From Limonium bicolor (Eukaryota > Streptophyta > Magnoliopsida > Caryophyllales > Plumbaginaceae), in the NCBI GenBank assembly GCA_023374045.1, contig CM041781.1, positions 140,918,982-140,982,981 of the forward strand: 64,000 nt of DNA, read 5' to 3'. Below, piece after piece: positions 40,653 through 61,931 of this stretch. A program made the position numbers and the translations under genes. Position 1 is the first letter of the stretch, and each line of letters opens with the position of its first letter. Below the pieces are notes generated by a model. The model ran no database searches, had not been told where the DNA came from, and worked only from the letters and a program-made list of their open reading frames with translations.

Positions 40653-43102
40653 CATTGCCGCGCATCGACGACCTGTTCGATCAGCTAAAAGAGCAAGACA
40701 TTGAGAAAACTGCATTCAAAACAAGATATGGCCACTACGAATTCACGGTGATGCCATTCGGTTTGTCTAATGCACCAGCCAAATTCATGGACCTTATGAA
40801 TCGGTTATTCAGTGATCAGCTGGACACTTCAGTAGTAGTATTCATTGACAACATTCTTGTGTATTCGAAGTCACCAGAAGAGCATGAAAACCATTTGAGA
40901 AGAGTACTTGAGACGCTGCGCGAGAACCAGCTGTATGCGAAGTTCTCCAAATGCGAGTTTTGGCTAGATCAGGTATCATTCCTCGGTCATGTCATCTCGA
41001 GCGCGTGTATTTCAATAGATCCATCCAAAATCGAAGCAGTGCGATCATGGCCTAGACCTAAGACTGTTACCGACATCCGGAGCTTTCTTGGTCTAGCCGG
41101 TTATTACCGGAGGTTTGTAAAGGACTTCTCAAAAGTCGCTAAGCCCATGACGTCATTGATGAATAAAGATGCACCCTTTGTATGGACAAAGGAGTGCGAG
41201 GTATCCTTCCAGAAACTAAAAGACTCATTGACCTCAGCGCCAATTCTCACACTTCCAGAGGGCACAGAGGGATTTGAGGTGTATTGTGATGCATCGGGCA
41301 AGGGCATGGGATGCGTACTCATGCAGCATGGCAAGGTAGTAGCCTATGCTTCTCGCCAGCTGAAAAAGCATGAGGAGAATTACCCGACACATGATCTAGA
41401 GTTAGGAGCCATTGTCTTCGCCTTGAAGATATGGCGACACTATCTCTATGGGGTAAGCATCACCATCTACTCCGACGACAAAAGTTTACAGTACGTATTC
41501 ACCCAGAAAGAATTGAACCTAAGGCAGAGGAGGTGGATGGAGTTCCTCTCGGATTACGACATCAACCTCCAGTATAAAGAAGGGAAGGCAAACGTAGTAG
41601 CCGACGCCCTGAGTCGTCGAGCACACTCGCTCCATTCGCTACTCGCTTCTTCTAGCTTGGTTGACGAGGTGCGAGACGCTCAGTTGAGCGACCCTTACTT
41701 CACAGAGATCAGACAGAAAATCACAGATGGTACCTTCGAGCGCCGAAAGTACGACTTCAAACTGCATGAAGATGGTCTGATCCGTTTGAATGGCAGATTA
41801 TGCGTCCCCTGAAGCAATGCTGAGCTAAGGGATCGCATTCTGCGAGAGTCGCATTGTTCGACATTGCATATCAATCCGGGAGCCTCTAAAATGTGCAAAG
41901 ACATGAGGAGGTACTTCTGGTGGTCAGGAATGAAATCAGACGTGACTGAGTATGTTCTGAGGTGTCTCACATGCCAGAAGGTGAAGTTCGAGCACCGAAG
42001 ATCGGGAGGAATGGTGCAATCCATGCCCATTCCGGAGTGGAAATTCCACGACATCTCCATGGATTTTGTTGTTGGACTCCCACCTGCTAGGGGAGGACTC
42101 AACATGATCTGGGTAGTAGTCGATCGCCTCACCAAGGTTGCCCGATTCATACCGATGAAGGACACCTGGAAGGTGGCGAAGCTCGCAGAGCTATTCGAAA
42201 CGGAGATCATCCGACACCACGGAGTCCCTAAAACCATTGTATCTGACCGCGACACCAGATTTCTTTCGAGATACTGGAGAGCGACACGGGAAGTGCTTGG
42301 TACTGAGTTAAAGCTTAGCACCGCCTTCCATCCACAGACCGACGGTCAGACAGAAAGGACCATCCAAACACTAGAGGATATGCTAAGGGCATGTGCCTTA
42401 GACTTCCAGGGGAGCTGGATTGAGAAGCTTCATCTTATCGAGTTTTCGTATAACAATAGCTACCATGCTTCGATTAAGATGTCGCCATTCCAAGCTTTGT
42501 ATGGTAGACCTTGCCGTACCCCGTTGTGTTGGGATGAGTCAAGTGAAGCGGTCATCATAGGACCGGAGTATTTAGAACAAGTACAAGCTGAGGTACAACA
42601 AATCCGAGCAAATATGAAAGCAGCCCAAGATAGACAGAAATCCTATGCGGATGTGCGACGACGCGACCTTGAGTTCGCCGTGGGCGACCAAGTGTTCTTG
42701 CGTGTCTCACCTATGAAGGGCGTCTTTCGATTTGGCCAAAAGGGCAAGCTGAGCCCGAAATTTGTAGGCCCGTATGCCATTACCGAGAGGATTGGAGCCG
42801 TAGCTTATAAGCTAGCATTGCCTGAAGAATTGGGGCTTGTTCATGATGTCTTTCATGTATCACAACTCAAGAAATACATAGCCAATCCCTCTCATGTATT
42901 AGAACCCAAACATCTATCCCTAGAGCCGACGATGAGATATGTCGAGACTCCACTGCGAATCCTCGATACGAAGACAAGAGACACTCGCCATAAATCTGTA
43001 CGAATGGTGAAGGTCTTGTGGTCTAACCACGATGTCGAGGAAGCGACTTGGGAATTAGAGGATGCCATGAAGGCGAAGTACCCAAATTTATTTGTAGACT
43101 AG
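40653..43102 (+). pseudogene. Element B pol: chromovirus RT (partial), RNase H, integrase, chromodomain
   Basis: One frame is broken by a single TGA (41810-41812) where the sister element C has Arg. The RT part opens at [11 protein letters not shown] but then jumps to DIEKTAF: relative to C about 63 bases, in frame, are missing, including the [11 protein letters not shown] motif with a catalytic Asp. The catalytic box reads FIDNILVY instead of FIDD. RNase H and the zinc-binding region follow, then the integrase core with [15 protein letters not shown] and QTERTIQT, a GPYAITERIG module and a C-terminal chromodomain-like stretch ([15 protein letters not shown]). This is the Tekay/Del branch of plant chromoviruses. 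RT activity must be lost; the integrase-chromodomain part is open over 412 codons from 41864. Confidence 0.9.
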
Positions 43103-43645
43103 ATGTCTAGTATCCGTATAGCACGGAGGGTACGGGGCGTACCCCTTTTTATGGGGGGTAGAGCCTTTTGCTTTAGCATTGCTTCGGGTTAGCATTGCGT
43201 AGTATGTATGTATTGTAATTGTATTTTGGTTGGCACATGTAGTGCTAATTGTATTTTACTGGCACAAAGTAGTGCTAGTAGTATTCGGTATGTAGTACGA
43301 TGTGTATGGTATGTATGTAATGAGTAATGCATTTGTGTTGTACGGTATATGACACGAATGACATTGTGAAGTGTATTGCGAATGTATTATGGAATGGATG
43401 GATTGGATGGAGCATTGTGTATGGTATTTGAATGAAGTATTGTGTATGGATTGGGTATTGCGTATGGTATTTGAACTGAGTATGTTGTATGGTATCTGAA
43501 TTGTGTATGATGGAAGTGTAAGAATTGTAAACACCGTGTAAGGGGTAGTAGAATGTATTGTGGCAATTGGCTTGCCAAATGAGTAGAAATGGTAAACCGT
43601 AACCTTGAGCAACTTTGAGGGCAAAGTTTCTTAAGGGGGGTAGAT
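43103..43645 (+). other. Element B 3' untranslated region and polypurine tract
   Basis: Rich in TGTATGGTATTTGAA-like repeats (about 43200-43560), with no gene. It ends in TTAAGGGGGGTAGAT (43631-43645), the PPT, with GAGGGCAAAGTTT before it. Minus-strand frames here are low-complexity. Confidence 0.75.
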
Positions 43646-45098
43646 TGAAATACCCCGTAATTAAAAATAGTGATTAATTAGGCTAATTATATTTTTAAAA
43701 GCTTAATTACACTAAAATAAATACAAGGGAACAAATCCCGAAGAAAACGGACCTTTAAAATGGGTTAAAAGCATAAACGAACCTTTAAGCGCGTTTTTCG
43801 AGGAAACCGGGAAAACGTGACTTTAAGCGGGTCAAATAGACTCGTAACAATTTTGGTCAACTAAATAGTCACTAATAAATATTAGTGGGGCTTTAGAACC
43901 AATAAAATTAATTAAACGAGAAAATTCTGGAAAACGGGTACCGGTTAGTGAAAACTGTAACAACCGGTAAGTTGTGGGGTAAGAGTACAAATAAACAAAC
44001 TTAGTGTGTCCACTTTGCAAATAAAAAGTAAAAATCAGATTGTGTGTGTGTGTAGGGGGCGGCCAGCACTCCTCCCTCTCTCACTCTCTTTATGTCTCTC
44101 TTATTAACTAATAGACAAGGAAATAAAGAAAGGAAAAAAAAATAAGACTCTCTCACCTCACTCCCCTCTTCCCTCACGATTTCCCTCCTCTCTATTCTCT
44201 CTTTTCTTCCTTCTTCTTCTACCTTGCGATTTTCATGGAGAAAGAAGAGAGCTCACAAAACTCCTCACTTCTCTCCTCTCTTTGAGTACTCAAATCTTCT
44301 CCAAACTAAACAAAAATTACACCATTAGAATCCCCTTGCAAAGGAGAACACTTTCCTCCTTTCAAAAATCCAAAAGCTCCATTTTCGATTTTATGGGTGT
44401 TCACCATTTGAAGGTTCAAGTCCACCATTAGAAGCACCTTCACCTCCTTATCATCTTGAGGTAAAAAGAATTTCGAAAATCCATCATTTCTAGCCCTTGT
44501 TTGCATTATAAGAGATTTCCATGTTTTGAACTCTTGGTTCTTCTTGCTCCAGCCGATTTTGGCTTCTCCATTGGGCTAGGAATATTGTTCTCTTGCTAGT
44601 CAAGAACTTCATTCACCCATTGAAAGGTAATACTCTTGTCTAAACCCTAAAACATTAAATTCTAGGGTTAGTGCAAACATGAATGTTTTGTTGTGTATTG
44701 GTATGGGTTGTAGAACTTGGGTGAGAACCCCATTCAAAACCGAGAACAAGAAAGAAGGAAGAAGAGAAGGAAAGGAAGGAAAGAAAAAACTAGCAAGACA
44801 AGGTAAATGCTTTTACCTTGTGTTAGTTTGTGTATTGTAATGTAACAGTTTTTAAGTAGTAAAATGAGTAATGTATTTGAGTAATGAGTAGTAGTAATGT
44901 AGTAGTGTGTTGGAGAAGAGAATGTAACAGTTTTTGAAGTTTTAAATGATGTTTGAAACTTGGGAAAACATTGGGTAGTGAATGTGTATGTGTGCAGGAA
45001 TTTTATGTGTTGTAGTAGTGTTGGATTGTGAGAATAATGTATTGTATAAACAGGTTGTGAGAATGTGAACTTGTGAGCTGAAATAGTGTGTGGAGAAT
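43646..45098 (+). mobile_element. Element B 3' LTR, first part (U3 side)
   Basis: It starts TGAAATACCCCG directly after the PPT. It is interrupted at 45098 by element C; the last five bases (agaat, 45094-45098) are the target duplication and the LTR resumes at 59312. It contains a CT-rich leader-like stretch (about 44060-44300), suggesting that transcription starts upstream of it. Confidence 0.85.
45094..45098 (+). repeat. Target site duplication of element C, left copy (agaat)
   Basis: agaat here and at 59307-59311 flank the TG..CA ends of element C exactly. A 5-bp duplication is normal for Ty3/gypsy integrase. Confidence 0.95.
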
Positions 45099-45724
45099 TG
45101 AAATACCCCAAACCTTAATATATTGTTTAAACACTTAAATATGGTGTATTAAGACTAAAAAGAGTCTTAGAAACATTAGAAAACAAGTTTAAACAAAAGA
45201 AAACACAAAATGTGCTTTAAAGTCAATAAGAGCCAAAATGTGCTCTAAGCTTGGGATAAACTTGGTTAAGACCTAATGAACTTACCAAGACCTCATTTAT
45301 ACACTAATGAACATGTTAAACCAATTACCAAAGAAAACCACGCTTGAAAACAAGTTTAAACACAAAATGTGCTTTAAGGAGTCTTAAAGCACATTTTTGA
45401 AAAATTGTCTTGTAAATGAGTTTTGAGTGGCTAGATGTCCATCATTACTCTTAAATATATATGTGTACTATATAATATCACATTTGGGTGTCTATATTAA
45501 TGGGAAATCAAAAATTTCACTTCTATGTGCCTTGTTTTATGAATAGTAACTTTATAAGCTATTTTGTAACATATGTTTGTATAAGTAATTAAATTGACAA
45601 ACAAAGACTATATTACCCTCCTACTACTATTTGGGGCCGGTTTTTAAGGTTGGTGACACACCACCCTTGTTAGCTTGTTAAGAAAATAAGTAAACTACTT
45701 AAGTACCCTTTTTACTTTACAAAG

Positions 45725-45732
45725 TATAAATA
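45725..45732 (+). promoter_or_regulatory. TATA box of element C 5' LTR
   Basis: TATAAATA sits 626 bases into the LTR, followed by a pyrimidine-rich leader; the 3' LTR has the same box at 55991-55998. It is the best candidate for the start of the genomic RNA. Confidence 0.65.
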
Positions 45733-47324
45733 TCTTCATAAAGCAAATTCTATCCCATTCTCTCATTTCTTTCCTTGCTCACACGGTTTCCCACCTCTCT
45801 TCTTCCTTCTTCTTGCTGTTCTCTCACGGTAATACACACACCCCCATTGAAACTCCCACTTTGATCTCTTGTAAAACCTTGCTCACTTGTCCAAATCAAA
45901 AACAAACACCACCAATCTCTTCCTCTCATCAAGCTCTTCATTCCTATCTTTTCAAAAGTCCAAGACAACCATTTCGGTGCCATGGAGTTTCTCCATTGAA
46001 GGAGCTTGAGCTTGTATTTTTACATATTGTTACTCTCCTTGGCTTCTAGGTAAGGAATCTCAAATAAAAACTTCATTTCCTCCTTGTTTTTGTCATGTCC
46101 GAAAATACACATTGAAGGAGCTTTTTATGTGACTTTGTTCTAGCTTCATTCCAACTCTTCATGGACTAGGTGGAGTCCTCTCTTGCTAGATATTCAAACT
46201 CTCTTCAAAGAGCAAGGTAAAACAACTACATTAATGTTTTTGAAACAATGTAAAACTAGGGTTTACAATGAGATGGAGCTTATAGCTTGAATACTCATTA
46301 TAATGTTTGTATATTGTTTAGAACTTGTCAAAGAATCAAGTACTCTATCGGTTTTCTAAAGGAACAAGAAAGAAGTTATTTTGCAAAAGAGGTAAATCTA
46401 CTAACCTAATGTTGTTTTAATGCCTTAGGAGAAATGAGCTTATAAATGCTTATTAAAACTACCTAAAGAGCCAATGGTGAATGACTTAGTAAAGTGTTCT
46501 CAAGAGCTTAGTAAAAGGCATATGTGTTGTTGAGTGTATTTGCAGGTTAAAGGCAAATATATTGTGGAAATTCAGTGTTTATGATTTGTGCATCTTAAGG
46601 GCCTAAGAGCCATGTCATTTAAGGGCCTAAGTGCCATGCAATTTAAATTATGCACTATATTGTGATGTAGTGCTTTGTGAGTGAAGTTGTGTATAAAAGT
46701 ACTTGATGGATTTTTAGTGTTCTTGGTTGTTTATTGGTAAAAACAATGTGTTTTGGTTTAGTAATGTTCTAGGAGAACCTATGTCGAAATTTGGGTAACA
46801 AATGTGAAGTTCTAAGTGTTAAAATGAGTTGATAAGTTAAGGAGTATTTAAAATGGTTAAGTGTTGTTCTTGTGTAGGAAACATGCATTAAGGTGATTTA
46901 GGATGTAACAAGGACTTAGGCATGAGCTTGAGATTTTAGTATGTACCAAAGTCATCTTGGGACTTAGGTAAAGACTTAGGCAAACTTTGGTAAATAAGAA
47001 GAAAGTGTAAACTTGGAAAAGAACTTCAAGAGTGACATAAGGAGTTGGTTGTGAGAAATAATGCTTAAGAGATGATGTTAAGATGAGGAGAAAGCATTTT
47101 GGGATAGTAGTTATAATAGGTGAGAAACACCATTTAGAAACCTAGTACAAAAGTTTAAGTGTTAAGGAATTTCACAAAGAAATAAGTAAAGGCTTAAGGA
47201 ATTAGAAAATGAGTTTCATGAATGTTGTATGTGGATATAAGGGTACCAAATGTTGTTAGGAAGCATTAGGAGGCTTTGGAGGAATTTGGTTAAGTGTTTA
47301 AAGTCTTAGAAATTGAGTATAATG

Positions 47325-47645
47325 GCACGTCCGAACTTCCGTCCGAACTTGGAAGCTCGGACATGCCCTGTTGCGCTTACAGTTTTCTGGATTTTAGGTG
47401 GTGTCCGAACTACCGTCCGAATTTGGAAGTTCAGACGCACCTGTTATTTCCTAGGGATTATCCTCGAACTGTGTCCGAACTTGGGAAGTCCGGACACATG
47501 TTCGGACGTATGGATTTCTGGTTAGGATTTTCCTCGACTCATGTCCGAAATTCCGAAGTCCGGACATAAGTTCGGACATGTGTCTGATTTCTGTCTAAAG
47601 TCACGGCTTGTGTCCGAACTTGGAAGCTCGGACACAAGTTCGGAC
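47325..47645. repeat. Element C LTR hairpin array, CCGAACTTG/CAAGTTCGG type
   Basis: About five inverted-repeat units, for example arms GTGTCCGAACTTGG and CAAGTTCGGAC, with GGAAGTCCGGAC or GGAAGCTCGGAC between them. Position about 2.23-2.55 kb into the LTR. The copy in the 3' LTR is at 57596-57915. Confidence 0.8.
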
Positions 47646-49046
47646 AGGCCACTGTATGGACCAAAATTGTTGTTTTAAGATGGGAATTGTTATCTAAAAA
47701 TTGTAGTTGGTTAGTAATGATATTATAAGGTTATGTGAGACATGTTAGGTGGGTTTTAAAGGCAATTAAAAGGATGAAAAGTTGTAACAAGTGTAAAATA
47801 AAAATAAACTAGTAATGTTGAGTAGATAATGTTAATAGTGGACTAGTGCGTTAATTAACCGACGTTACTAATGTGTTTAGGATTCTCTCAAGGTGGAAAC
47901 CAGTCGAGGCAAGGACCGAGGTATGGTTTTCTTGTAGTCTGTTGTCTAGCGGTTTACACCAGTTTGTGAGTTGTATGTTTTTCTGTGTGTTTACAACGTT
48001 ATAAGATTTAAACATGTAATGAGTTTACAGTTGTTCGTATTATTGTGATGTGATGTTGTGACTCAATTCTCTTGTGTGTGTCTAACATGACTTACCACCT
48101 ATTGTGTGTTGGTTGTTAAGTTCCACTATGAACTTCTAACAAGTGTTAACTGGGAAGTGAGGAATCCGGTTGTCCGGTTATGCATGTAAGTTAAGAGTAG
48201 ATATCTGAATCAGATTCGACTCTTATGTTGTTAAGATTGTTCTCCTTAAATTGGCGTTCGATCTCCCGCTAGCTTCTTCCAAAGCTTACCTATTCTGACT
48301 TATGATCGGTTTAGTGGGAACCTGTGTTGTGTGGTGTGTTCGGGTCACTAATCCGAACCATCTGTGACTTAAGTTACTCGTTCGTCTAACAGAACGGTAA
48401 TGAGTGTGTTTAACGAGCTTGACATGAGAGTGAATCACTCTCTAGGCTCTTATGTTATTTGACCCTTGTGGTTTGTTATCGTGGAGTGAAAATCCACTGT
48501 GTATGTGTTGTTGTGCTATGCGCCATTGATGCTAAGCCATATGTTATGTTATGTATATAAATGAATGCCATGTTATAATGACAAGTAGCTGCGCGTATCC
48601 CGGTAGCCGATGGGCTGCGCGTTAGCCATACCAGCCAAGGGTTGCTGACCCCCTCGGGGGATCCATATTTCTTATACTGCAGGATGAGGATCGAAGAAGC
48701 GGAGTGGCTTTAGATCCTAGGATGTGATTACTTTTGTATACTTTTGGATGTTGGCCCGGGATGCGCCTGTGCTCCTGTGGCGTTATATACTTTTGGTTGT
48801 TGCAGTTACAGTAATGTTATACAGTGAAGGATATGTAAACACTCGGTATTGTATATGATGTATTTATGGTTTAGTTTTATGCTCGGGAGTCTGATCATCA
48901 GACCGGTACAATTGTATTCATTCTGCCTTGTCAAACACGTGGGTGGTTGACGGCGTTGTAGCACCGAATCGTTAGTTACTGTTTAGTCATTTATTCCGCT
49001 GCAATTTCATTTAGTATCATGTGCGTATTTGGGGTGTTACAAAAAG

Positions 49047-49074
49047 TGGTATCAGAGCGAAGTATCGCTCTGAT
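49047..49074 (+). promoter_or_regulatory. Element C primer binding site (tRNA-iMet) and overlapping palindrome
   Basis: TGGTATCAGAGC (49047-49058) starts five bases after the LTR end and matches the plant initiator tRNA-Met 3' end. ATCAGAGCGA and TCGCTCTGAT (49051-49074) form a 10-bp stem with loop AGTA, so the primer site can also be paired in a hairpin. Confidence 0.9.
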
Positions 49075-49143
49075 GACTAGAATACCGAGCTTAGGAATAT
49101 ACCGAGTTAGGAAACCTAACTACAGTTACCTAAGTGATCAGTT

Positions 49144-50610
49144 ATGGAAGGTAGACCACGCGGTAGAGGCCGCGGAAGTGGTACTGGTACTGGGGGAGAC
49201 CAGGGCGAGAACACTACGGCCCAGGTTATGGCTGAGGCTGTAGCAGCCGCTGTGGCCCAGATGGTACCCCAGCTTGTAGCTGCGATCCAGCAGGGGCAGA
49301 TGCCCGGAGTTCAGCCACCACCGCCACCGCCACGAGAGACCAACTGGGTCAAGGCATTGGCAGACTTAAGACCCCCTTCATTTCATGGGGAGACCGACCC
49401 ACGTAAGCTGGAGGCGTACATCTCCGAGTTGGAGACCGCCTACGAGACCTTGGCTGTACCTTCAGAGGCTAAGGTCTGTCTTGCCGCTTACTACCTGAAG
49501 GGTTCGGCACAAAACTGGTGGAAGCTAGTGAGAGAGGACCGGATGACGGATCCTCAGTTTGGTTGGAGGGAGTACACGGCTCTGCTGCGAGCCAAATACT
49601 ACCCCGTGCACGTTCAAGAGGCCAAGCGCCTGGAGCTGGATAGCCTGAGGCAGGGGGACAAGGTGACGGTTGATGAGTATTACACCGCCTTCACCGGCCT
49701 TGTCCACCTGTTACCGGACCTGGGATACTCGAACCGGGTGCTGGTAAACCGTTTCTACAACGGTCTCAGCCACCGTCTTCGCTATGGGATGGGGCCAGCT
49801 GAGTATACTACCTTGCAGGTAATTTGAATAAAGAGTGATGTGAATATGTGTAGTCTATAAGTGAGTATTAATGTGAGTTTGTGAGTATGTATTGCGGGGC
49901 ATGACTGACCATCCTAAATTCAGGAGTGCTATCATGCCGCTGCTAAGGTGGAGATCACCGTCCGTCTGAGGGACGAGGAGAATGCGCACAAGCGCAAGGC
50001 CACGAGCGAGGGCCAGAGTTCACAGGGGTACGGGGGAGGAAAGAAGAAGAAGAAACCTTATCCCCAGCCCCAGAAGAGTCAGCACCAGGGTGACAAGGGC
50101 CAAGCCCAAACCACCACAGCCGAGGAGCCACTGAAGCTCACATATGCCTATGCGGCGAAGCCCCTACGCTCATACCCACCAAAGGGTAATGGTTTAATCA
50201 TGTGTAATAAGTTGATGTGTATGTTGATAAGTTGTGAAACAAGTACTGAGTGTGTATTGTGTTAGCAGCTAGCACGGGCTCTGGACCGGAGCGCCACTAT
50301 TACTGTAAGTGGTGCAATGGAGACCACCCCAGCAAGGACTGCAAAGGGAATGAGGTGCAGTGTCGATACTGCGAGAAGTGGGGTCACCGTGACCACGAGT
50401 GTTACCGGAACCCCAACAGCAGAGTCAACAAGCCCAAGGGGCAGTGGAAGGGTAAGGCCACAGCAGCTATTGATGGCCCGAAGACGGCTAACCAGCCACC
50501 CACTGATCAGAGGCATACTGATTCCCAGAAGGGGAAAGGGTCGGGACCTAGCAAGGCCACCCTGAATGTGGTGGACCGGTCTGAGGCGCCAGGGCCCTCT
50601 TCTAGACCAG
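49144..50610 (+). CDS. gag: Gag with introns (capsid-like region, two zinc knuckles)
   Basis: Gag forms the virus-like particle and binds genomic RNA. Exons: 49144-49818, 49924-50185 and 50269-50610. The GT-AG introns (49819-49923, 105 nt; 50186-50268, 83 nt) are visibly more AT-rich than the exons, contain stops, and join in matching phase (0, then 1). Joining exon 1 to exon 2 puts TTLQ next to ECYHAAAKVE, and the combined text follows chromovirus Gag order: an RGRGRGSG basic start, the Gag core (YLKGSAQNWW, VDEYYTAF), a lysine-rich segment, then zinc knuckles CX2CX3HX4C (CKWCNGDH...) and CX2CX4HX4C (CRYCEKWGH...). About 426 codons. The last codon is split at a third donor (GT at 50611), leading either to the AlkB exon or toward pol. 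An unspliced RNA would stop at 49826. Intron calls are by eye. Confidence 0.8.
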
Positions 50611-50756
50611 GTACCGCCTAAACTGTTGAATGTAATAAGTGATTGCATACCGTATTTCATGCTTACGTGTACTAGTGAGTTCAAGTGTATCATCATGTGA
50701 GTGAGGAGTTAAAGTATAGTGTAAAAGACACCTAATAGATAATTCTAAACTGAAAG
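50611..50756 (+). other. Candidate intron 3 between gag and AlkB (146 nt)
   Basis: Donor AG|GTACCG at 50610/50611 (phase 1) and acceptor CTGAAAG|GAACC at 50756/50757. The AT-rich stretch has CTAAT and CTAAAC as possible branch sites and a stop in the gag frame at 50622-50624. Removing it joins gag to the AlkB frame exactly: 1279 plus 740 nt is 673 codons including the stop. Confidence 0.6.
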
Positions 50757-51496
50757 GAACCTTCAATATATGTTATCCAATCCCACCCACACCAAACCCT
50801 GAAGAAACCACCATCAACATCACCGACTTTCCAATGGAGCAATGTCAGGTTATCCAGCCAGGTATGATACTCTTAAGTGGATACCTGACACCGGAAGCAC
50901 AAGTCCATATCATCAGACGATGCGACGAACTTGGAGCTAAACCTGGAGGTTTCTACACACCTGAATATCCGAACGGATCAAGAATGCAATTGAAGATGAT
51001 GTGCATGGGTAAGGACTGGAACCCTTACACCAAGTCATATCAAGAAGTGCGAGCTGAAGATGGAGCAACAGTACCAAGTATACCAGAGGAGTTCCGTGCG
51101 GTCGTTAATCACGCCGTGGGAATTGCTCAACAAGTTGGAACGGATTCAATTCCAAATGTAGAAGCAGATTTGTGTATTGTGAACTTCTACCAGAAAGGTG
51201 GACGGTTAGGTTTACACCAAGATAAGGACGAGTCACCCGAGTCTCTAAGTAAGGGAGTACCCGTGGTGTCTTGGTCCATTGGTGATACCGCAGTATTTGT
51301 GTATGGCGAGCAGAAGCGTGCTGATCTCGCATGGAAGTTAATGTTAAAGTCAGGAGATGTACTAATCATGGGTGGGCAGTCAAGGATGCTATATCACGAC
51401 ATCAGAAAGATCAAACTGAATACCGCACCGTCGGCAGTGATCAATGCCACACACATGAAACCCGGACGTTTGAATTTGACCTTCAGACAATTCTAA
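50757..51496 (+). CDS. AlkB-type Fe(II)/2-oxoglutarate dioxygenase (plant ALKBH1-like) inside the retrotransposon
   Basis: AlkB enzymes oxidatively remove methyl groups from nucleic acids. Counting from the ATG at 50834 (220 codons), the core keeps N117-F-Y119, H128-Q-D130 and H188 (the iron triad) and R212-L-N214-L-T216-F-R218 (the RxNxTxR signature that binds 2-oxoglutarate). SWSIGDTAVFVYG (147-159) and SGDVLIMGG (173-181) are typical core strands. GMILLSGYL, GGFYTPEY and LKMMCMGKDW fit plant ALKBH1-like proteins rather than the ALKBH9/10 group. The frame is open upstream of the ATG back to the acceptor at 50757, so a Gag fusion (672 residues) is possible. It is intronless, as expected for capture from an mRNA. 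It shows no stop or frame shift, unlike the neighbouring pol. It lies in sense orientation between Gag zinc knuckles and protease. A separate later insertion cannot be excluded, but no LTR, TIR or poly-A tail borders it. Confidence 0.9.
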
Positions 51497-51679
51497 GCCT
51501 TGTATACTTTTGTAATGTGTTAAGCCAGTATATGTTAAGGGAGTTATGTATGTGTTAAGTTATATCAACCATGTAAACCAACAATGTTGTAAAGAGGAAG
51601 TGTTAATGAATAAAGTGGAGTTATTGAAGTATATCAACCGTGTTGTTACCCAGTACTTATTAGTTTGCCAATGAATTAG
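51497..51679 (+). other. AT-rich spacer between AlkB and protease, candidate 3' end of a long intron
   Basis: Low-GC text with stops in all frames, ending ATTAG|GTTG at 51679/51680 after a T-rich stretch. Joined to the donor at 50610 it would remove the whole AlkB region (1069 nt) and enter the protease frame, except for a one-base discrepancy near 51726. Confidence 0.4.
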
Positions 51680-53892
51680 GTTGTGCACTCGGAACGGGAG
51701 GTACACGAGTGTCTGCAATGAGGCAGAAGCCAGCAAGAGCGGCACAATCCTCACTGGTACCTTTCCAGTGAATGGCGTGGATGCATCGATCTTGTTCGAC
51801 TCTGGAGCCTCACACACATTTGTTTCGCTATCTTTTGCGAAGAGGCTGGGGTTAGATGGAGAGGAGATGCCAGACTTCTTGGTCACTCTCCCATCGAAAG
51901 AGCGGATCAGATGTACCCGCTACCACCGAGATGTCATTGTACGAATCAGAGGTGAAGAGTTCCCGATCGACCTGATAGAGTTCGACGGACTTGGATTTGA
52001 TGTGATTGTCGGGATGAACTGGTTGGAGCGGTACAAGGGCAGAATCCTGTGTGCTGAGCATCGACTGCTTCTTCGGAGTCCATCTGGGGTTACCATATCT
52101 TACCGCCAGAGGCCCAGGGAGCCTTCGACTCAGATCATCACCGCCATGGCCATGTATCGTGAGTTACGACGAGGGAGTGATGTATACCTCTGCTATGTCC
52201 AGGACATAGAGAGAGACCCTGAGTTTAGCCCAGATGTGCCGGTAGTGTCGAGTTTCCTGATGATGTATTTCCTAAGGAACTGCCGGGCATGCCGCCAGCA
52301 CGAGAGGTTGAGTTTTGAGATCGACTTAGTTCCGGGTACTGGACCCATTGCGAAAGCACCTTATCGTATGGCTCCAGCAGAGATGACAGAGCTCAAGGAG
52401 CAGCTGAGAGACCTACTCGACAAGGGCTTTATCCGCCCTAGTGTTTCACCATGGGGAGCGCGGTTCTCTTCGTGAAGAGAAGGACGGGAGCCTCCGCCTG
52501 TTGTATTTTATCGGGAGCTGAATGCTGTTACGGTGAAAAACCGTACCCTTACCACGCATCGACGATCTATTTGATCAGCTGAAGGGTGCATCAGTATTCT
52601 CCAAGATAGACTTACGTTCCGGATACCATCAGATTGCCATCCGTGACAGTGATATCGAAAAGATAGCTTTCAGAACGAGGTATGGGCACTATGAGTTCAC
52701 AGTTATGCCGTTTGGCTTATCGAATGCACCAGCTAAGTTCATGGACTTAATGAACCGTTTGTTCCAAGATCAGGTGGACAAGTCAGTGGTAGTCTTCATC
52801 GATGACATTCTTGTGTATTCTAAATCTAGAGGTGAGCACGAAAGCCACCTGAGAAATGTGTTACAAACTCTGAGGAAACCAGTTGTATGCAAAGTTTTCG
52901 AAATGTGAATTTTGGTTGAACCAAGTATCTTTCCTTGGACATGTGATTTCTGAGGCCGGGATCGCTGTTGATCCGGCAAAGATAGATGCAGTGCGCACCT
53001 GGCCTAGGCCGAAGACAGTCACTGATATCAGGAGCTTCCTCGGTCTGGCAGGTATTATAGGAGGTTTGTGAAGGACTTCTCCAGTATCTCGAAGCCGATG
53101 ACTTCCTTAATGAAGAAGGATGCACCATTCGAGTGGACAGTTGACTGTGAGAGTTCTTTCGCGAGTCTCAAGGATGCTCTGACATCTGCACCAGTCCTGA
53201 CTATACCAGACGGTCCAGATGGTTTTGAGGTCTACTGCGACGCATCAGGCAGGGTATGGGTTGTGTGTTGATGCAACACGGGAAGGTCGTAGCATACGCC
53301 TCCCGTCAGCTGAAGAAGCATGAGGAGAACTACCCTACCCACGACTTAGAATTGGGTGCCATTGTCTTCGCATTGAAGATATGGCGACATTATTTGTATG
53401 GGGTAAGTGTGACAATCTATTCTGACCATAAAAGCTTAAAGTACTTGTTCACTCAGAAAGAGTTGAACATGAGGCAAAGAAGGTGGGTTGAGTTTCTGAA
53501 TGACTACGATATTAATCTGCAATACAAAGAGGGTAAGGCAAATGTGGTAGCTGACGCACTGAGTCGCCGAGCACACTCTCTCCATTCGCTAGTCTCTTAC
53601 TGGCTTGGTTGAAGAGGTGCGGAGTGCTCAGATGACGGATCAGTACATGCTGGAGATCCGGCAGAAGCTTATTGATGGCACATTCGAGGGTCAGAAGTAC
53701 GACTTCAGACTCCACGATGATGACCTGATTAGGCTGAATGGCCGATTGTGTATACCTAGGAGTAGCGCTGAGTTGAAGGAGCGCATATTGAGTGAATCCC
53801 ATTGTTCTACTACTTCGATTCACCCCGGAGCTTCAAAGATGTATAAGAGTATGAAAAGGTATTTTTGGTGGACTGGAATGAAGAAAGATGTT
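51680..53892 (+). pseudogene. pol: Element C protease, reverse transcriptase and RNase H, broken by one-base indels
   Basis: Protease: FDSGASHTFVS near 51799 with the catalytic DSG, then [60 protein letters not shown] and the intact catalytic [10 protein letters not shown] (about 52797). RNase H: EVYCDASG (about 53228), [22 protein letters not shown] and [12 protein letters not shown]. Part of the integrase zinc-binding region follows (SESHCS, YKSMKRYFWWTG). The frame shifts near 51726, 52245 and 52315 (compensating), 52457, 52510, 52540, 52885, 53055, 53252, 53600 and 53890. All are small indels, and I found no substitution to a stop. Either the copy has decayed or the consensus sequence has errors. 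The sister element B has no frame shift over the corresponding 2.4 kb. Confidence 0.88.
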
Positions 53893-55046
53893 GAGTATTG
53901 TTGAGGTGTCTCACTTGCCAGAAGGTCAAGTTTGAGCACCGACGGCCTGGTGGTATGGTACAGCCAATGCCAGTGCCTGAGTGGAAGTTCCATGATATCT
54001 CCATGGACTTTGTAGTAGGGCTTCCGCCTACAAGGGGAGGTCTGAATATGATATGGGTGATAGTTGACCGACTGACCAAGGTGGCCCGATTCATTCCGAT
54101 GAAGGACACTTGGAAAGTGGCAAGATTGGCAGAACTGTTTGATAAAGAGATTGTAAGACATCATGGTGTACCAAAAACGATTGTATCTGACAGAGATACC
54201 AGATTCTTATCCAGATATTGGAAGTCCACACGAGAGGCATTGGGTACTGAATTGAAATTGAGTACAGCGTTTCATCCACAGACCGATGGTCAGAGTGAGC
54301 GCACTATTCAGACACTTGAGGATATGCTACGTGCTTGTGCACTTGACTTTCAGACCAGCTGGATTGATAAGTTACATCTGATCGAGTTTAGTTACAACAA
54401 CAGTTATCATGCTTCGATCAAGATGTCTCCCTTCCAGGCCTTGTACGGTAGACCATGCCGCACGCCATTATGCTGGGATGAGTCGAGTGAGACGGTCATT
54501 ATAGGACCAGAGTATCTTGAGCAAGTTCAGGCAGAAGTTCGCCAGATCAGGGCTAATATGAAAGCAGCTCAGGATAGACAGAAGTCGTACGCAGATGTGC
54601 GCCGACGTGACCTGGAGTTCGCCGTGGGCGATCAGGTATTTTTGAGAGTATCCCCCATGAAGGGAGTATTTCGTTTTGGCCAGAAGGGCAAGTTGAGCCC
54701 AAAGTATGTGGGGCCTTATGTTGTGACGGAGCGGATCGGCCCGGTAGCCTATAGACTAGACCTACCCGCCGAGCTGGGCAAGGTACATGATGTATTTCAT
54801 GTGTCCCAGTTGAAGAAGTATATGTCTCATCCGTCTCATGTGCTTCAGCCTGAAAGGCTAACCTTAGAGCCGACCATGCGATCAGTGGAGACTCCGGTAC
54901 GGATTCTGGATGCTAAGACTCGAGACACTCGCCATAAGTCCGTGAGACTGGTGAAAGTTCTTTGGTCTAACCAGGACGTTGAGGAGGCCACTTGGGAGCT
55001 GGAAGATAAGATGAAGGCGAAGTACCCGTCATTGTTTACTTCTTAG
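53893..55046 (+). CDS. Element C integrase with GPY module and chromodomain
   Basis: Integrase inserts the cDNA into the chromosome, and a C-terminal chromodomain can steer this to marked chromatin. From 53898 the frame has 382 codons. The CxxC of the zinc-binding region is at residues 4-7; its His residues are upstream beyond the frame shift near 53890. The catalytic core has D37 (SMDFVVG), D98 (VSDRDTRF) and E134 (QSERTIQT), the DD35E spacing. [16 protein letters not shown] and [10 protein letters not shown] blocks follow, then [10 protein letters not shown] and the C-terminal [18 protein letters not shown], as in Tekay-type chromodomains. Stop TAG at 55044-55046. It is almost colinear with element B's integrase. 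In life this would be the end of a Gag-Pol polyprotein, so the ATG at 53898 is not a real start. Confidence 0.9.
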
Positions 55047-55369
55047 TACTTATGTGTATAGGGTACGGGGCGTACCCCTTTTTAAGGGGGGTAGAGCCGT
55101 TTCGGTTATGTGTGTACGACGTGTATTTGAATACATCGTCTATGTTATGTTGTTATGTTACAGACCGTTGTGTCTGAATGATGTGGATAATGTTGTATGG
55201 ACCTTGTGTCCAATGTTATGTTATGTTGTATGGACCTGGTGTCCAATGTTATGTAAGTGTGTTGTTAATGATGTATGGAAGTATTGTTTATAAGTATTCC
55301 CGTGTGCTAATATTTAGGATATGTGGAAGTATGAACTTTGAGGACAAAGTTCTTTTAAGGGGGGTAGAT
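55047..55369 (+). other. Element C 3' untranslated region and polypurine tract
   Basis: No gene. It contains repeats of GTATGGACCTTGTGTCCAATG type (55190-55250), then GAACTTTGAGGACAAAGTTC and the PPT TTTTAAGGGGGGTAGAT (55353-55369). Confidence 0.8.
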
Positions 55370-58300
55370 TGAAATACCCCAAACCTTAATATATTGTTTA
55401 AACACTTAAATATGGTGTATTAAGACTAAAAAGAGTCTTAGAAACATTAGAAAACAATTTAAACAAAAGAAACACAAAATGTGCTTTAAAGTCAATAAGA
55501 GCCAAAATGTGCTCTAAGCTTGGGATAAACTTGGTTAAGACCTAATGAACTTACCAAGACCTCATTTATACACTAATGAACATATTAAACCAATTACCAA
55601 AGAAAACCAAGCTTGAAAACAAGTTTAAACACAAAATGTGCTTTAAGGAGTCTTAAAGCACATTTTTGAAAAATTGTCTTGTAAATGAGTTTTGAGTGGC
55701 TAGATGTCCATCATTACTCTTAAATATATATGTGTACTATATAATATCACATTTGGGTGTCTATATTAATGGGAAATCAAAAATTTCACTTCTATGTGCC
55801 TTGTTTTATGAATAGTAACTTTTATAAGCTATTTTGTAACATATGTTTGTATAAGTAATTAAATTGACAAACAAAGACTATATTACCCTCCTACTACTAT
55901 TTGGGGCCGGTTTTTAAGGTTGGTGACACACCACCCTTGTTAGCTTGTTAAGAAAATATAAACTACTTAAGTACCCTTTTTACTTTAAAGTATAAATATC
56001 TTCATAAAGCAAATTCTATCCCATTCTCTCTCTATTTCTTTCCTTGCTCACACGGTTTCCCACCTCTCTTCTTCCTTCTTCTTGCTGTTCTCTCACGGTA
56101 ATACACACACCCCATTGAAACTCCCACTTTGATCTCTTGTAAAACCTTGCTCACTTGTCCAAATCAAAAACAACACCACCAATCTCTTCCTCTCATCAAG
56201 CTCTTCATTCCTATCTTTCAAAAGTCCAAGACAACCATTTCGGTGCCATGGAGTTTCTCCATTGAAGGAGCTTGAGCTTGTATTTTTACATATTGTTACT
56301 CTCCTTGGCTTCTAGGTAAGGAATCTCAAATAAAAACTTCATTTCCTCCTTGTTTTTGTCATGTCCGAAAATACATATTGAAGGAGCTCTTTTTGTGACT
56401 TTGTTCTAGCTTCATTCCAACTCTTCATGGACTAGGTGGAGTCCTCTCTTGCTAGATATTCAAACTCTCTTCAAAGAGCAAGGTAAAACAACTACATTAA
56501 TGTTTTTGAAACAATGTAAAACTAGGGTTTACAATGAGATGGAGCTTATAGCTTGAATACTCATTATAATGTTTGTATATTGTTTAGAACTTGTCAAAGA
56601 ATCAAGTACTCTATCGGTTTTCTAAAGGAAACAAGAAAGAAGTTATTTTGCAAAAGAGGTAAATCTACTAACCTAATGTTGTTTTAATGCCTTAGGAGAA
56701 ATGAGCTTATAAATGCTTATTAAAACTACCTAAAGAGCCAATGGTGAATGACTTAGTAAAGTGTTCTCAAGAGCTTAGTAAAAGGCATATGTGTTGTTGA
56801 GTGTATTTGCAGGTTAAAGGCAAATATATTGTGGAAATTCAGTGTTTATGATTTGTGCATCTTAAGGGCCTAAGAGCCATGTCATTTAAGGGCCTAAGTG
56901 CCATGCAATTTAAATTATGCACTATATTGTGATGTAGTGCTTTGTGAGTGAAGTTGTGTATAAAAGTACTTGATGGATTTTTAGTGTTCTTGGTTGTTTG
57001 TTGGTAAAAACAAGGTGTTTTGGTTTAGTAATGTTCTAGGAGAACCTATGTCGAAATTTAGGTAACAAATGTGAAGTTCTAGGTGTTAAAATGAGTTTGA
57101 TAAGTTAAGGAGTATTTAAAATGGTTAAGTGTTGTTCTTGTGTAGGAAACATGCATTAAGGTGATTTAGGATGTAACAAGGACTTAGGCATGAGCTTGAG
57201 ATTTTAGTATGTACCAAAGCCATTTTGGGACTTAGGTAAAGACTTAGGCAAACTTTGGTAAATAAGAAGAAAGTGTAAACTTGGAAAAGAACTTCAAGAG
57301 TGACATAAGGAGTTGGTTGTGAGAAATAATGCTTAAGAGATGATGTTAAGATGAGGAGAAAGCATTTTGGGATAGTAGTTATAATAGGTGAGAAACACCA
57401 TTTAGAAACCTAGTACAAATGTTGTAAGTGTTAAGGAATTTCACAAAGAAATAAGTAAAGGCTTAAGGAATTAGAAAATGAGTTTCATGAATGTTGTATG
57501 TGGATATAAGGGTACCAAATGTTGTTAGGAAGCATTAGGAGGCTTTGGAGGAATTTGGTTAAGTGTTTAAAGGCTTAGAAATTGAGTATAATGGCACGTC
57601 CGAACTTCCGTCCGAACTTGGAAGCTCGGACATGCCCTGTTGCGCTTACAGTTTTCTGGATTTTAGGTAGTGTCCGAACTACCGTCCGAATTTGGAAGTT
57701 CGGACGCACCTGTTATTTCTAGGGATTATCCTCGAACTGTGTCCGAACTTGGGAAGTCCGGACACATGTTCGGACGTATGGATTTCTGGTTAGGATTTTC
57801 CTCGACTCATGTCCGAACTTCCGAAGTCCGGACATAAGTTCGGACATGTGTCTGATTTCTGTCTAAAGTCACGGCTTGTGTCCGAACTTGGAAGCTCGGA
57901 CACAAGTTCGGACAGGCCACTGTATGGACCAAAAATTGTTGTTTTAAGATGGGAATTGTTATCTAAAAATGGTAGTTGGTTAGTAATGATATTATAAGGT
58001 TATGTGAGACATGTTAGGTGGGTTTTAAAGGCGATTAAAAGGATGAAAAGTTGTAACAAGTGTAAAATAAAAATAAACTAGTAATGTTGAGTAGATAATG
58101 TTAATAGTGGACTAGTGCGTTAATTAACCGACGTTACTAATGTGTTTAGGATTCTCTCAAGGTGGAAACCAGTCGAGGCAAGGACCGAGGTATGGTTTTC
58201 TTGCAGTCTGTTGTCTAGCGGTTTACACCGGTTTGTGTGTTGTATGTTTTTCTGTGTGTTTACAACGTTATAAGATTTAAACATGTAATGAGTTTACAGT

Positions 58301-59306
58301 TGTTCATATTATTGTGATGTGATGTTGTGACTCAATTCCCTTGTGTGTCTAACATGACTTACCACCTATTGTGTGTTGGTTGTTAAGTTCCACTATGAAC
58401 TTCTAACAAGTGTTAACTGGGAAGTGAGGAATCCGGTTGTCCGGTCATGCATGTAAGTTAAGAGTAGATATCTGAATCAGATTCGACTCTTATGTTGTTA
58501 AGATTGTTCTCCTTAAATTGGCGTTCGATCTCCCGCTAGCTTCTTCCAAAGCTTACCTATTCTGACTTATGATCGGTTTAGTGGGAACCTGTGTTTGTGT
58601 GGTGTGTTCGGGTCACTAAATCCGAACCATCTGTGACTTAAGTTACTCGTTCGTCTAACAGAACGGTAATGAGTGTGTTTAACGAGCTTGACATGAGAGT
58701 GAATCACTCTCTAGGCTCTTATGTTATTTGACCCTTGTGGTTTGTTATCGTGGAGTGAAAATCCACTGTGTATGTGTTGTTGTGCTATGCGCCATTGATG
58801 CTAAGCCATGTTATGTTATGTATAAAATGAATGCCATGTTATAATGACAAGTAGCTGCGCGTATCCCGGTAGCCGATGGGCTGCGCGTTAGCCATACCAG
58901 CCAAGGGTTGCTGACCCCCTCGGGGATCCATATTTCTTATACTGCAGGATGAGGATCGAAGAAGCGGAGTGGCTTTAGATCCTAGGATGTGATTACTTTT
59001 GTATACTTTTGGATGTTGGCCCGGGATGCGCCTGTGCTCCTGTGGCGTTATATACTTTTGGTTGTTGCAGTTACAGTAATGTTATACAGTGAAGGATATG
59101 TAAACACTCGGTATTGTATATGATGTATTTATGGTTTAGTTTTATGCTCGGGAGTCTGATCATCAGACCGGTACAATTGTATTCATTCTGCCTTGTCAAC
59201 CACGTGGGTGGTTGACGGCGTTGTAGCACCGAATCGTTAGTTACTGTTTAGTCATTTATTCCGCTGCAATTTCATTTAGTATCATGTGCGTATTAGGGGT
59301 GTTACA
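55370..59306 (+). repeat. Element C 3' LTR, 3937 bp
   Basis: A near copy of 45099-49041. TATA box at 55991-55998, hairpin array at 57596-57915, ends GGGGTGTTACA. Differences from the 5' LTR are scattered substitutions and short, often homopolymer, indels. Confidence 0.93.
57596..57915. repeat. Hairpin array in element C 3' LTR
   Basis: Copy of the array at 47325-47645, with small differences including a repaired arm near 57810 (CCGAACTTCCG against CCGAAATTCCG). Confidence 0.8.
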
Positions 59307-61931
59307 AGAATGTTAGAAATATAGGGGAGACCATGTCGAATTTTGTGTAGAAATGAGAGGACTTAAGTGTTCAAGAAGAGGAAGTACTTGGAGAGTTTCA
59401 AAGGAGTGTTTTGTAGTTTAAAACAGATGTGAAAAGAGTGTAGGTAATGTGAAGATATAGGATCCAACGTAATGCAATTTGGATACTAGGAGTAGCATTA
59501 GTTGAGGGAGTAATGAGGGATAGAAGTTTGAATAAAAATCTGTAGCATAAGAAGAGGAAACAAAATCTGTAGCAAAGGGAGGATGAAAACTGATGCAAGT
59601 GTTGGGAAGAAATGAGGAAATTTGGTGTAAGTTGTGTAAGAATGGAGTAGTAAGTTTGGAGGATGAATTAAGGTGATTTAGAGTGTGTAAGTAGTGCTAA
59701 ATCATGTGGGGAAACATTGGTAAAGATTGGGGAAACAATGGGTAAAGAAAACACCCAAAAACAGATTTTAAAACTGAAGTACTGGGTCGGACCGACCCTA
59801 GGACCGAACTTGCAAGGTCGGTCGAGCCCAGATTTACAAGACGGGAAACCTTCTGGAATCGACCGACCTTGCGACCGGACATGCAAGTTCGGTCGGACCA
59901 GAAAATTCTCCCGTCTGAAACCTTCTGGAATGGACCGAACTTGCGACCGGACTTGCAAGTTCGGTCGGCCAGAAAAATTCCGCAGATGAAAGCTTCTGGA
60001 ATGGACCGAACTTGTGACCGGACTTGCAAGTTCGGTCGGCCAGGAAAATTTCAGTAATGGGAGCTACTGCAATGGACCGACCTTGCGACCGGACTTGCAA
60101 GGTCGGTCGGGCTAAAATTTTCAAATACGAAACCTACTGGAATGGACCGACCTTGGGACCGGACTTGCAAGGTCGGTCGGCCCTGGAATTTTACACGATG
60201 TAGTCTACTGGAATGGACCGGACTTGCAAGGTCGGTCGCAAGTCCGGTCGAGTAAAAAAAAATGTTTTAATTATATGATTATAGTAATAATATATACATA
60301 TATATGCCTATGTACACATATGCATATATAAGTAGTAATACACCATTAATGAAGTAATAATGGTAAGAAAGTAAGTGAATGTGTAAGGAAGCAAGTTTAT
60401 GAAGTAGTAAAGGAAAGAATGGTTTTATAACCAAGTAAGAAAGTAATGGAGTAGTAAGTATACATTGAAAGTATCAATGAAGGAGTAAGTTAGATCAATA
60501 ATAGATCATTGATCATACTACTTCATGTATGTATAGGAATCAAATAGTTGATCTCCAAAGGAACCGGTAGTACGAAAACGACGGTGTACGGTATGATTTC
60601 CTCATGCCCTGTATCCTAACTTGGTTACCCCGATTTGTGTGCTTATGTGATCACCAATAAGATAAATGCACGAATTGGACTTATATTGCACTTAACTGTG
60701 TTTGAACTATATTGTTCTTGTTTTATGCTCTTGAACATTTAGTTTGTATAATTCATGAAATGTATGAATGGAAATGAAGTGTATGTGTAAGTATGAGTAC
60801 TTGTGTATTGTATGTATGTATGGGAAGTAAGTACTGACTTCTACTAATTCCTAACCATCTAACTCCTAACATGAGTAATGAATATAATGGAATGAGTAGA
60901 AGCCCGATATAGTTTCGGCCACGCGTGAGGATAAGGAGACTTAAGAGGTTGTATCCGAATCCTGGCTATAATCTTTTCCTTGGACCAAATCCCTTGAATG
61001 GGTAGCATCCTGGATTAGTGGGCCACCCTAAAGCCCGGTGGTGGGATGTAGTAATCCCTGCCCGGAGGTCATACCGACTTAACTGGAAGTAAAGTATGTA
61101 AGAAGTATTGTATTCGTATCGGTCTTGACTATTGTAAGTCATTGACCCGGAGTAAAAGTATTGAACACCCGATTAACCCGGGTGTGTAATAAGGCTAACA
61201 AGACCTTTGTATGTAATGGAGAATTGTATATCCGTGATGCGGTGAGTATGGTAAGTATGAACGAATGACTTGTGTTGTATTCCTTGTATGTATTGTATGT
61301 ATGTATGCTTGGTGAAATGAATGCATTGTATTGTATAAAGCATGTATGTATGTATGAATGAAACGAATCGCATGTACTCGACCAAATAATTGGCGTACCC
61401 TCGCTAGTACGCGGGGTATGCGGTTATCATATGCAGCGTAAGCTGACCCCCTAGGGGGAATGTTTTTACTCCACAGGTACCCGCGAGGCGTGAAGGTAGA
61501 GTAAGGTCAAGATGTGATTCTTTTTGGAGTAGTAGTAAGATTAGATGGTGTACTGAGTTGTACACGGCTAAGGCCTTTTGAGTAGCCGGTGTACCATGTG
61601 GTACACCTTTTTGAGTAATGAAGCCTTGATTGGACAGCAAGGAGTAGTTGTATAAACTCTTAATTTTTGGGAAGTAGCACTGGGTTGTAATTCGTATAAC
61701 TTGGATACTCGGTAATCAAATGTAAGTAAGTACTTGGATTGTAAGGTAAGTAGTATGTATGCATCTATTCTAATCGTCAGACCGATACGGTAAGTAGTAG
61801 TAGCCTTGTTAACCTTGGATGGTTAACGGCATTGTATCACCCACCGGGAGTAGGTAAGTATTCCGCTGCGAGCAAGGTAATTATGGGAATGATTAGAGGA
61901 TAATGGAAGGATTAGCGGTTGGGGTGTTACA
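59307..61931 (+). mobile_element. Element B 3' LTR, second part (to U5 end)
   Basis: It begins with the right copy of the agaat duplication (59307-59311) and ends GGGGTGTTACA at 61931. With 43646-45098 it makes an LTR of about 4.07 kb. It includes a hairpin array (59784-60252) and, near 61430-61500, a phrase CTGACCCCCTAGGGGG that parallels CTGACCCCCTCGGGGG in the LTR of C. No gene. Confidence 0.85.
59784..60252. repeat. Element B LTR hairpin array, GACCGAACTTGC/GCAAGTTCGGTC type
   Basis: About seven units of 60-70 bp, each with arms such as GACCGAACTTGC and GCAAGTTCGGTC around GACCGGACTT, separated by spacers with CTTCTGGAATG or CTACTGGAATG. Position about 1.93-2.39 kb into the LTR. The long frames across it on both strands are repeat artefacts. 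Confidence 0.85.

Follow-up and report, generated by a model that had tools for sequence, protein, structure and literature searches.

The window analysed here, a stretch of 64,000 nucleotides from Limonium bicolor (assembly GCA_023374045.1, contig CM041781.1, positions 140,918,982 to 140,982,981), carries a Ty3/gypsy long terminal repeat (LTR) retrotransposon with an intact AlkB domain encoded between gag and pol. The element spans positions 45099-59306 (14.2 kb) and both of its ends are present. Its 5' LTR (45099-49041, + strand, 3943 bp) and its 3' LTR (55370-59306, +, 3937 bp) begin with TGAAATACCCC and finish with GGGGTGTTACA, the terminal bases being identical between the two, and identical copies of the target-site duplication AGAAT flank the element at 45094-45098 and 59307-59311. 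A G-rich polypurine tract is located 5' of the 3' LTR (before 55370), and the primer binding site (PBS), TGGTATCAGAGC, is found 3' of the 5' LTR at 49047-49058 (+). We take this PBS to be of the initiator tRNA-Met type. In published work tRNA-Met is described as the commonest PBS type of plant elements (PMC6317226). By eye, most of the PBS is overlapped by a perfect 10-bp inverted repeat with a 4-base loop (ATCAGAGCGA AGTA TCGCTCTGAT, 49051-49074), which could fold over it.

LTRs, PBS, polypurine tract and target-site duplication are all present, as in a structurally complete Ty3/gypsy element, and Pfam profiles give the domain order gag - AlkB - protease - reverse transcriptase - RNase H - integrase, in agreement with the Ty3/gypsy order. 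An initial annotation of the window had called the boundaries perfect, and this holds for the LTR ends, the PBS, the polypurine tract and the target-site duplication; the LTRs match exactly at their termini and not over their full length, with 26 substitutions in 3927 aligned bases (99.3% identity, 0.66% divergence). Because of this low divergence, the AlkB-bearing element is, judging from its LTR pair, a young insertion. The two LTRs (45099-49041 and 55370-59306) are also separated by 20 small indels, mostly of a single base, which are numerous relative to the 26 substitutions, and such a high ratio may reflect long-read assembly error. The window has two 500-N gaps (12061-12560 and 40153-40652), and both lie outside the element.

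The pol region starts at a predicted splice acceptor, ATTAG/GTTG, with the protease (51680-52475, +; RVP_2, PF08284, E 3.7e-29 for the ORF 51681-52475), and is followed by reverse transcriptase and RNase H, split over several frames (52705-53612, +; PF00078, E 1.6e-12, and PF17917, E 2.7e-30), and by an integrase (53605-55046, +; PF17921, E 2.1e-12) with a Tf2-1-type SH3 domain (PF24626, E 7.7e-27) and a C-terminal match to a chromodomain (PF00385). The assignment to Ty3/gypsy made in the initial annotation stands, and the element is likely a chromovirus; the latter label cannot be applied strictly because the chromodomain match is weak (20.6 bits, E 4.3e-4) and falls under the Pfam cut-off of 25.1 bits. 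A related element next to it, described below, gives a similar chromodomain match of 19.1 bits.

The predicted AlkB exon occupies 50757-51496 (+), and the domain ORF, which starts at an ATG of its own (50834), runs to 51496 in the same sense as the element and encodes 220 amino acids. Upstream of that ATG the frame stays open to 50757 and beyond, leaving 740 bases uninterrupted; a translation that starts at base 50757 itself is out of frame, the AlkB codon boundary being at 50756. The full AlkB core that had been recognized initially is confirmed by the PF13532 profile, which is matched over its whole length (positions 1-194 of 194, E 4.5e-47, 161 bits against a cut-off of 31.2), and the NxY, HxD...H and RxNxTxR motifs are all found as NFY (117-119), HQD (128-130), H188 and RLNLTFR (212-218). 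The run HQDKDE is common to the window domain and E. coli AlkB. An AlphaFold model of the domain (pLDDT 95.1, pTM 0.92) has rice OsALKBH1 (5xoi) as its top structural match with a TM score of 0.94, followed by E. coli AlkB at about 0.8, and sequence matches to solved structures come in the order rice ALKBH1 (5xeg, E 7.2e-69), E. coli AlkB (E about 1e-21) and animal ALKBH1 (E about 1e-11). With rice OsALKBH1 (5xeg/5xoi) the window domain shares 49-50% identity, the predicted fold and the cofactor motifs; it differs from plant ALKBH1 in the lack of a short insert before the NFY strand and in an aspartate in place of glycine 189 (G189D), and from host proteins such as P0005 in the lack of their long N-terminal region. 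AlkB enzymes are Fe(II)/2-oxoglutarate demethylases that act on DNA or RNA. On sequence and modelled structure, the domain is complete and of the plant ALKBH1 type, and is likely a demethylase.

A protein-database search with the AlkB domain returned 2800 proteins with E values up to 0.001, and the best 120 were listed. Among these 120 the closest matches, P0001-P0004, are ENA or Logan proteins at 62-71% identity, and the next are plant proteins at about 50% identity, labelled in their sources as abh1-like, AlkB or ALKBH1C/D-like and in many cases as 'hypothetical'. In a tree of 63 rows, none of which could be identified as coming from a gymnosperm, fern or moss, the window domain, P0001-P0004, P0048 and P0112 form a clade of seven rows (support 99/95) that adjoins 40 plant rows (support 99/93), 36 from named angiosperms and 4 from Logan. 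Another 16 rows, 3 of them named as bacterial, fall outside and apart from both groups. Approximately unbiased tests rejected neither a grouping with monocots nor one with eudicots (P 0.063 and 0.062). Database matches, tree and fold, in which OsALKBH1 ranks first, thus agree with the initial view of an ALKBH1-like domain and make it plant-type rather than phage-type. A phage origin was discarded, as the viral_contigs relatives (3 loci out of 55 matched stretches) are 27-32% identical to the domain against about 50% for plant genes, and so was bacterial contamination, since a scan of prokaryote genomes gave 25 stretches and no close relative among them, and the 16 outside rows stand apart in the tree. 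The domain was probably captured from a plant host gene. A host mRNA is a plausible source molecule because the coding stretch of 740 bases is uninterrupted, and the apparent splice acceptor at the 5' edge of AlkB would fit the capture of a partly spliced transcript equally well.

The history of the captured protein can be read from where its substitutions fall. A column was counted as conserved when it is at least 95% conserved in a background of 45 other rows. Between the window domain and P0001, 54 of the 198 columns compared show a difference, yet just one of these falls among the 50 conserved columns (hypergeometric P 1.9e-7). That conserved columns are spared to this degree indicates purifying selection on the AlkB protein over most of the period since it split from P0001. 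The window domain departs from the background at 3 of 51 conserved columns, two of them in common with P0001 and the third being G189D. This bears on the view that AlkB is a passenger, a host exon caught by read-through and of no use to the element. The single copy seen, the substitution beside an iron ligand and the broken pol of this copy all fit such a passenger, which we nevertheless regard as rather unlikely given the avoidance of conserved sites (P 1.9e-7), the frame that has stayed open over 740 bases and the six relatives that join the window AlkB in its clade, although these could be element-borne or host genes alike.

A second sign of selection that had been proposed, the contrast between a clean AlkB frame and a damaged pol, did not survive analysis. 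In this copy pol consists of seven successive ORFs with six frame changes, plus an unread stretch at 52476-52704, so that of the roughly eleven small indels estimated in the initial annotation at least six breaks are present. At the rate given by the 20 indels of the LTR pair, 8.55 indels are expected in pol and 1.88 in AlkB, and the probability of finding none is 0.15 for AlkB, 0.04 for the gag exons and 0.006 for gag exons and AlkB together. Since AlkB would be free of indels by chance at P about 0.15, the contrast is not significant and says little on AlkB alone, and it was rejected as a sign of selection, whereas the separate test on conserved sites does show constraint. Much of the damage to pol may postdate insertion or stem from assembly, because the 8.55 expected indels fit the at least six frame changes observed; against assembly error as the full account, the pol of the related neighbouring element has one interruption in 2.4 kb.

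Upstream of AlkB, gag is not a single reading frame and is apparently broken by two GT-AG introns. Exon 1 (49144-49818, +) codes for the capsid (Retrotrans_gag, PF03732, E 1.2e-17 for the ORF 49144-49827) and ends at the donor CAG/GTAATT. The predicted intron 1 (49819-49923, +) has 105 bases and 35% GC against 59% in the flanking exons, and its AG/GAG acceptor restores the frame. The predicted exon 2 (49924-50185, +) is open in the phase set by exon 1, and a predicted intron 2 (50186-50265, +; GT...AG, 80 bases, 31% GC) separates it from the predicted exon 3 (50266-50610, +), which holds two zinc-knuckle-like motifs, one of variant spacing at 50304-50342 and one of canonical spacing at 50361-50402. 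AlkB lies in sense between these knuckles (50304-50402) and the protease ORF (51681-52475), in the position first assigned to it. The gag frame meets a stop at 50619-50621, just past a donor CAG/GTACCG (50610/50611), and an acceptor AAAG/GAACC at 50756/50757 enters the AlkB frame in the correct phase from that donor, which would make 50611-50756 (+, 35% GC) an intron, here called 3a, between gag exon 3 and the AlkB exon. Exons 1, 2 and 3 and the AlkB exon are each open in the phase passed on by the preceding exon. Four GT sites were examined in 50595-50640, and the donor at 50610/50611 alone among them lies 5' of the gag stop; two of the eight AG sites examined in 50700-50790 (50739 and 50757) are in frame and open with this donor. 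Base composition follows the same pattern, with GC fractions of 0.59, 0.59 and 0.59 in the gag exons and 0.46 in AlkB, and of 0.35, 0.31, 0.35 and 0.32 in the intervals. The last of these intervals, an AT-rich spacer after AlkB (51497-51679, +, 32% GC), is the predicted 3' part of the interval skipped for Gag-Pol. An AATAAA is found at 51609-51614, a little over 100 bases past the AlkB stop and one of two on the + strand of the internal region; it could end a message terminated in AlkB.

Because the donor before the gag stop and the acceptor at 50756/50757 would join Gag to AlkB in frame, a Gag-AlkB fusion produced by predicted splicing is likely. The apparent introns and this in-frame junction go beyond what had been noticed initially. 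A blind check of the introns was performed by a two-state GC segmentation that ignores splice sites, under six settings and two further ones. Among the six, intron 1 was recovered in four as 49804-49893 (its ends displaced by 15 and 30 bases), intron 2 in three as 50187-50264 (each end displaced by one base), and both AlkB flanks came out as separate intervals in four.

A quite different origin would be a one-off insertion of a host retrocopy into this element after its integration, or a misassembly. One copy was inspected, the window has its two 500-N gaps and the LTR pair many small indels, all of which would be compatible with such an event. Both gaps, however, lie outside the element, the left edge of AlkB coincides with an in-frame splice site, and the surroundings of AlkB contain neither a stretch of at least seven A nor a direct repeat that convincingly flanks it; we therefore consider this origin very improbable. 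The direct repeats D4 (50737-50748 and 51485-51496, 12 bases, 92%) and D5 were dropped as candidate insertion marks, being imperfect and each having one copy inside the AlkB exon.

AlkB is not part of the canonical gene set of these elements, as the initial annotation correctly noted, but a precedent had been overlooked. An AlkB (2-ODD) domain has been described in Ty3/gypsy elements of the orchid Phalaenopsis, Gypsy_Pa_2799 and its kin, and the accessible part of that report, which screened 121 plant genomes, places AlkB domains in Phalaenopsis elements only; these belong to the Tat/Ogre lineage, and their domain is ALKBH5-type and demethylates m6A in vitro (PMC9289625). Going by that description, Gypsy_Pa_2799 and the window element are both Ty3/gypsy elements whose LTRs are very long, and each has an extra reading frame for an AlkB domain that retains its cofactor residues. 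Gypsy_Pa_2799 is distinguished by its Tat/Ogre lineage, a tRNA-Arg PBS, a dual RNase H, a length of 25.5 kb and a single Gag-Pol ORF, and its ALKBH5-type domain is C-terminal in a separate ORF2 of 565 amino acids. The window element, in contrast, has a chromovirus-like integrase end, the TGGTATCAGAGC PBS, a length of 14.2 kb and a gag apparently with introns, and its ALKBH1-type domain is located between gag and protease. It thus departs from the Gypsy_Pa_2799 type in subfamily and position, and apparently in lineage. Because enzyme subfamily, position and apparently lineage differ, this looks like a second capture of AlkB by Ty3/gypsy elements, independent of that in the orchid.

The orchid element suggests another way in which AlkB could serve its carrier, as a separate enzyme translated from the ATG at 50834 without any Gag fusion, erasing m6A from element mRNA and so releasing it from host control. 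The domain does have its own ATG, the orchid ORF2 is described as standing alone and as removing m6A from RNA in vitro (PMC9289625), and ALKBH9B is reported to free ONSEN RNA from stress granules (PMC12786077). Against this, similarity to P0002 reaches upstream of the ATG as far as the acceptor (GTFNICYP, with GPFDICYP in P0002), PFDIC being present in that region in two of four named host proteins compared (P0005 and P0010; the other two are too short there), and the gag stop sits just past an in-frame donor. The subfamily also argues against it, being ALKBH1-type, whereas m6A activity in plants is described for the ALKBH5/9/10 type (PMC9289625). We regard a separate m6A eraser as unlikely, though as a serious competitor.

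The reading that we tentatively prefer, at somewhat less than even confidence, is that of a young Ty3/gypsy element with an intact captured AlkB of the plant ALKBH1 type between gag and pol, which by predicted splicing would yield a particle-borne Gag-AlkB fusion. The unspliced full-length element RNA would be packaged, while removal of the short gag introns together with a junction from donor 50610 to acceptor 50757 would give Gag-AlkB, and a junction from 50610 to acceptor 51680, skipping AlkB, would give Gag-Pol in working copies. The AlkB exon would accordingly be either the alternative last exon of a Gag-AlkB message or skipped for Gag-Pol. Fused to Gag, the enzyme would be carried into the particle beside the template RNA and the nascent cDNA, where, with Fe(II) and 2-oxoglutarate, it might demethylate single-stranded template RNA or nascent cDNA. 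Both m1A and m3C are substrates of AlkB-type enzymes, and both block reverse transcriptases. The likeliest targets would be such lesions that block reverse transcription (m1A, m3C), or 6mA. The fuller proposal, that a chromovirus splices a Gag-AlkB and packs a DNA-repair-type demethylase to clear methyl lesions during reverse transcription, having captured it independently of the orchid element and from another AlkB subfamily, is possible but doubtful. What is published on related enzymes is compatible with the preferred reading: in vitro, rice ALKBH1 is reported to strip 6mA from single-stranded DNA, and without it 6mA reportedly rises in R-loops, the genome-wide effect being limited (PMC10469495); plant ALKBH1 orthologues are described in like terms (PMC12973404); and a role in repairing methylation damage to viral RNA is described for the AlkB domains of RNA viruses (PMC2714080).

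Several points weigh against this preferred reading. The substrate proposed for the element AlkB is drawn from its relatives, and the AlkB-bearing element is seen as one copy in the 64-kb window. G189D (codon 51398-51400) is adjacent to the iron-binding His188 at a position that is glycine in 95% or more of the 45 background rows, is not present in P0001-P0004 and may weaken the enzyme. Because P0001 could be element-borne or a host gene, the selection seen may have operated on a host gene rather than on the element. Splicing at these sites is a prediction: inspected by eye, the pyrimidine tract of the 50757 acceptor is poor, a second in-frame acceptor lies at 50739, and from the acceptor at 51679/51680 a pol exon read in the same phase soon meets a stop, the protease being in a different frame. 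In the blind segmentation, four separate AT-rich intervals appeared in two of the six settings, once with the last starting at 51335 inside AlkB, and the two further settings missed both gag introns. Nor did a gag relative back the introns, as gag exon 1 gave 1957 candidates and no hits in the protein database.

Splicing in itself would not be foreign to plant LTR elements. They are described as generally without introns; the exceptions named are Ogre and EVADE, which employ alternative splicing and produce spliced subgenomic RNA (PMC12786077; for Ogre also PMC6317226). The likeness to Ogre and EVADE is that in these, too, alternative splicing is described as setting the ratio of element proteins (PMC12786077, PMC6317226), as predicted here. 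The accessible accounts mention no extra enzyme in their introns, whereas the window element has an AlkB exon in its gag-pol interval as a predicted alternative last exon. Additional ORFs of obscure function are reported in Tekay elements (PMC11728184), and plant RNA viruses, namely flexi- and closteroviruses, are likewise described as mobile nucleic-acid parasites with an AlkB domain (PMC9289625); the window AlkB groups beside plant host genes, in a comparison made up of rows other than the virus domains. Beyond the Phalaenopsis report (PMC9289625) and its citation in a review (PMC12786077), the accessible open-licence literature gave no sign of other AlkB-bearing plant LTR elements, and the same literature offered no precedent for a Gag-AlkB fusion. 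Two or more uptakes of AlkB by plant Ty3/gypsy elements, involving distinct enzyme subfamilies and apparently distinct element lineages, would make methyl marks or methyl damage on element nucleic acid a recurrent pressure point. The ALKBH1 type and the in-frame Gag junction would lead to a specific and testable claim, demethylation in the particle at reverse transcription and not on mRNA. If true, introns and a captured alternative exon would be added to the plant LTR elements, which are generally described as intronless (PMC12786077).

The AlkB element is inserted in the 3' LTR (43646-45098 and 59312-61931) of a related Ty3/gypsy neighbour (40653-45098 and 59312-61931). The body of this neighbour (40653-43645) has lost its gag side at the gap and is hence uninformative on AlkB, while its pol is nearly open and its integrase is 89% identical over 380 amino acids to that of the AlkB element. 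Both share the same 24-base polypurine tract and LTR start, their LTRs otherwise giving only 30-base BLAST matches. Between the two integrases pN is 0.076 against a saturated pS of 0.82, and because of this the pol of this group of elements appears to have been long under purifying selection, a measure of strong past constraint only. In the protein database the integrase gave 7993 matches (120 of them listed). In viral_contigs the integrase and gag exon 1 matched 4 and 2 stretches, respectively, with no relatives among them.

Elsewhere in the window, eight of the 13 longer ORFs outside the element were scanned and gave no Pfam family, and Rfam had no matches in the window. A fragment at 12586-12927 (-) matches the C-terminal part of the integrase at 33% identity. 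A pair of direct repeats of 2.4 kb at 23596-25948 and 33433-35797, 96.8% identical, are perhaps the LTRs of another element. Tandem arrays of 44-base units (39041-39265) and of 71-base units (59789-60227) have cores resembling ACCGGTCG and GGTCGGTCGG, respectively.
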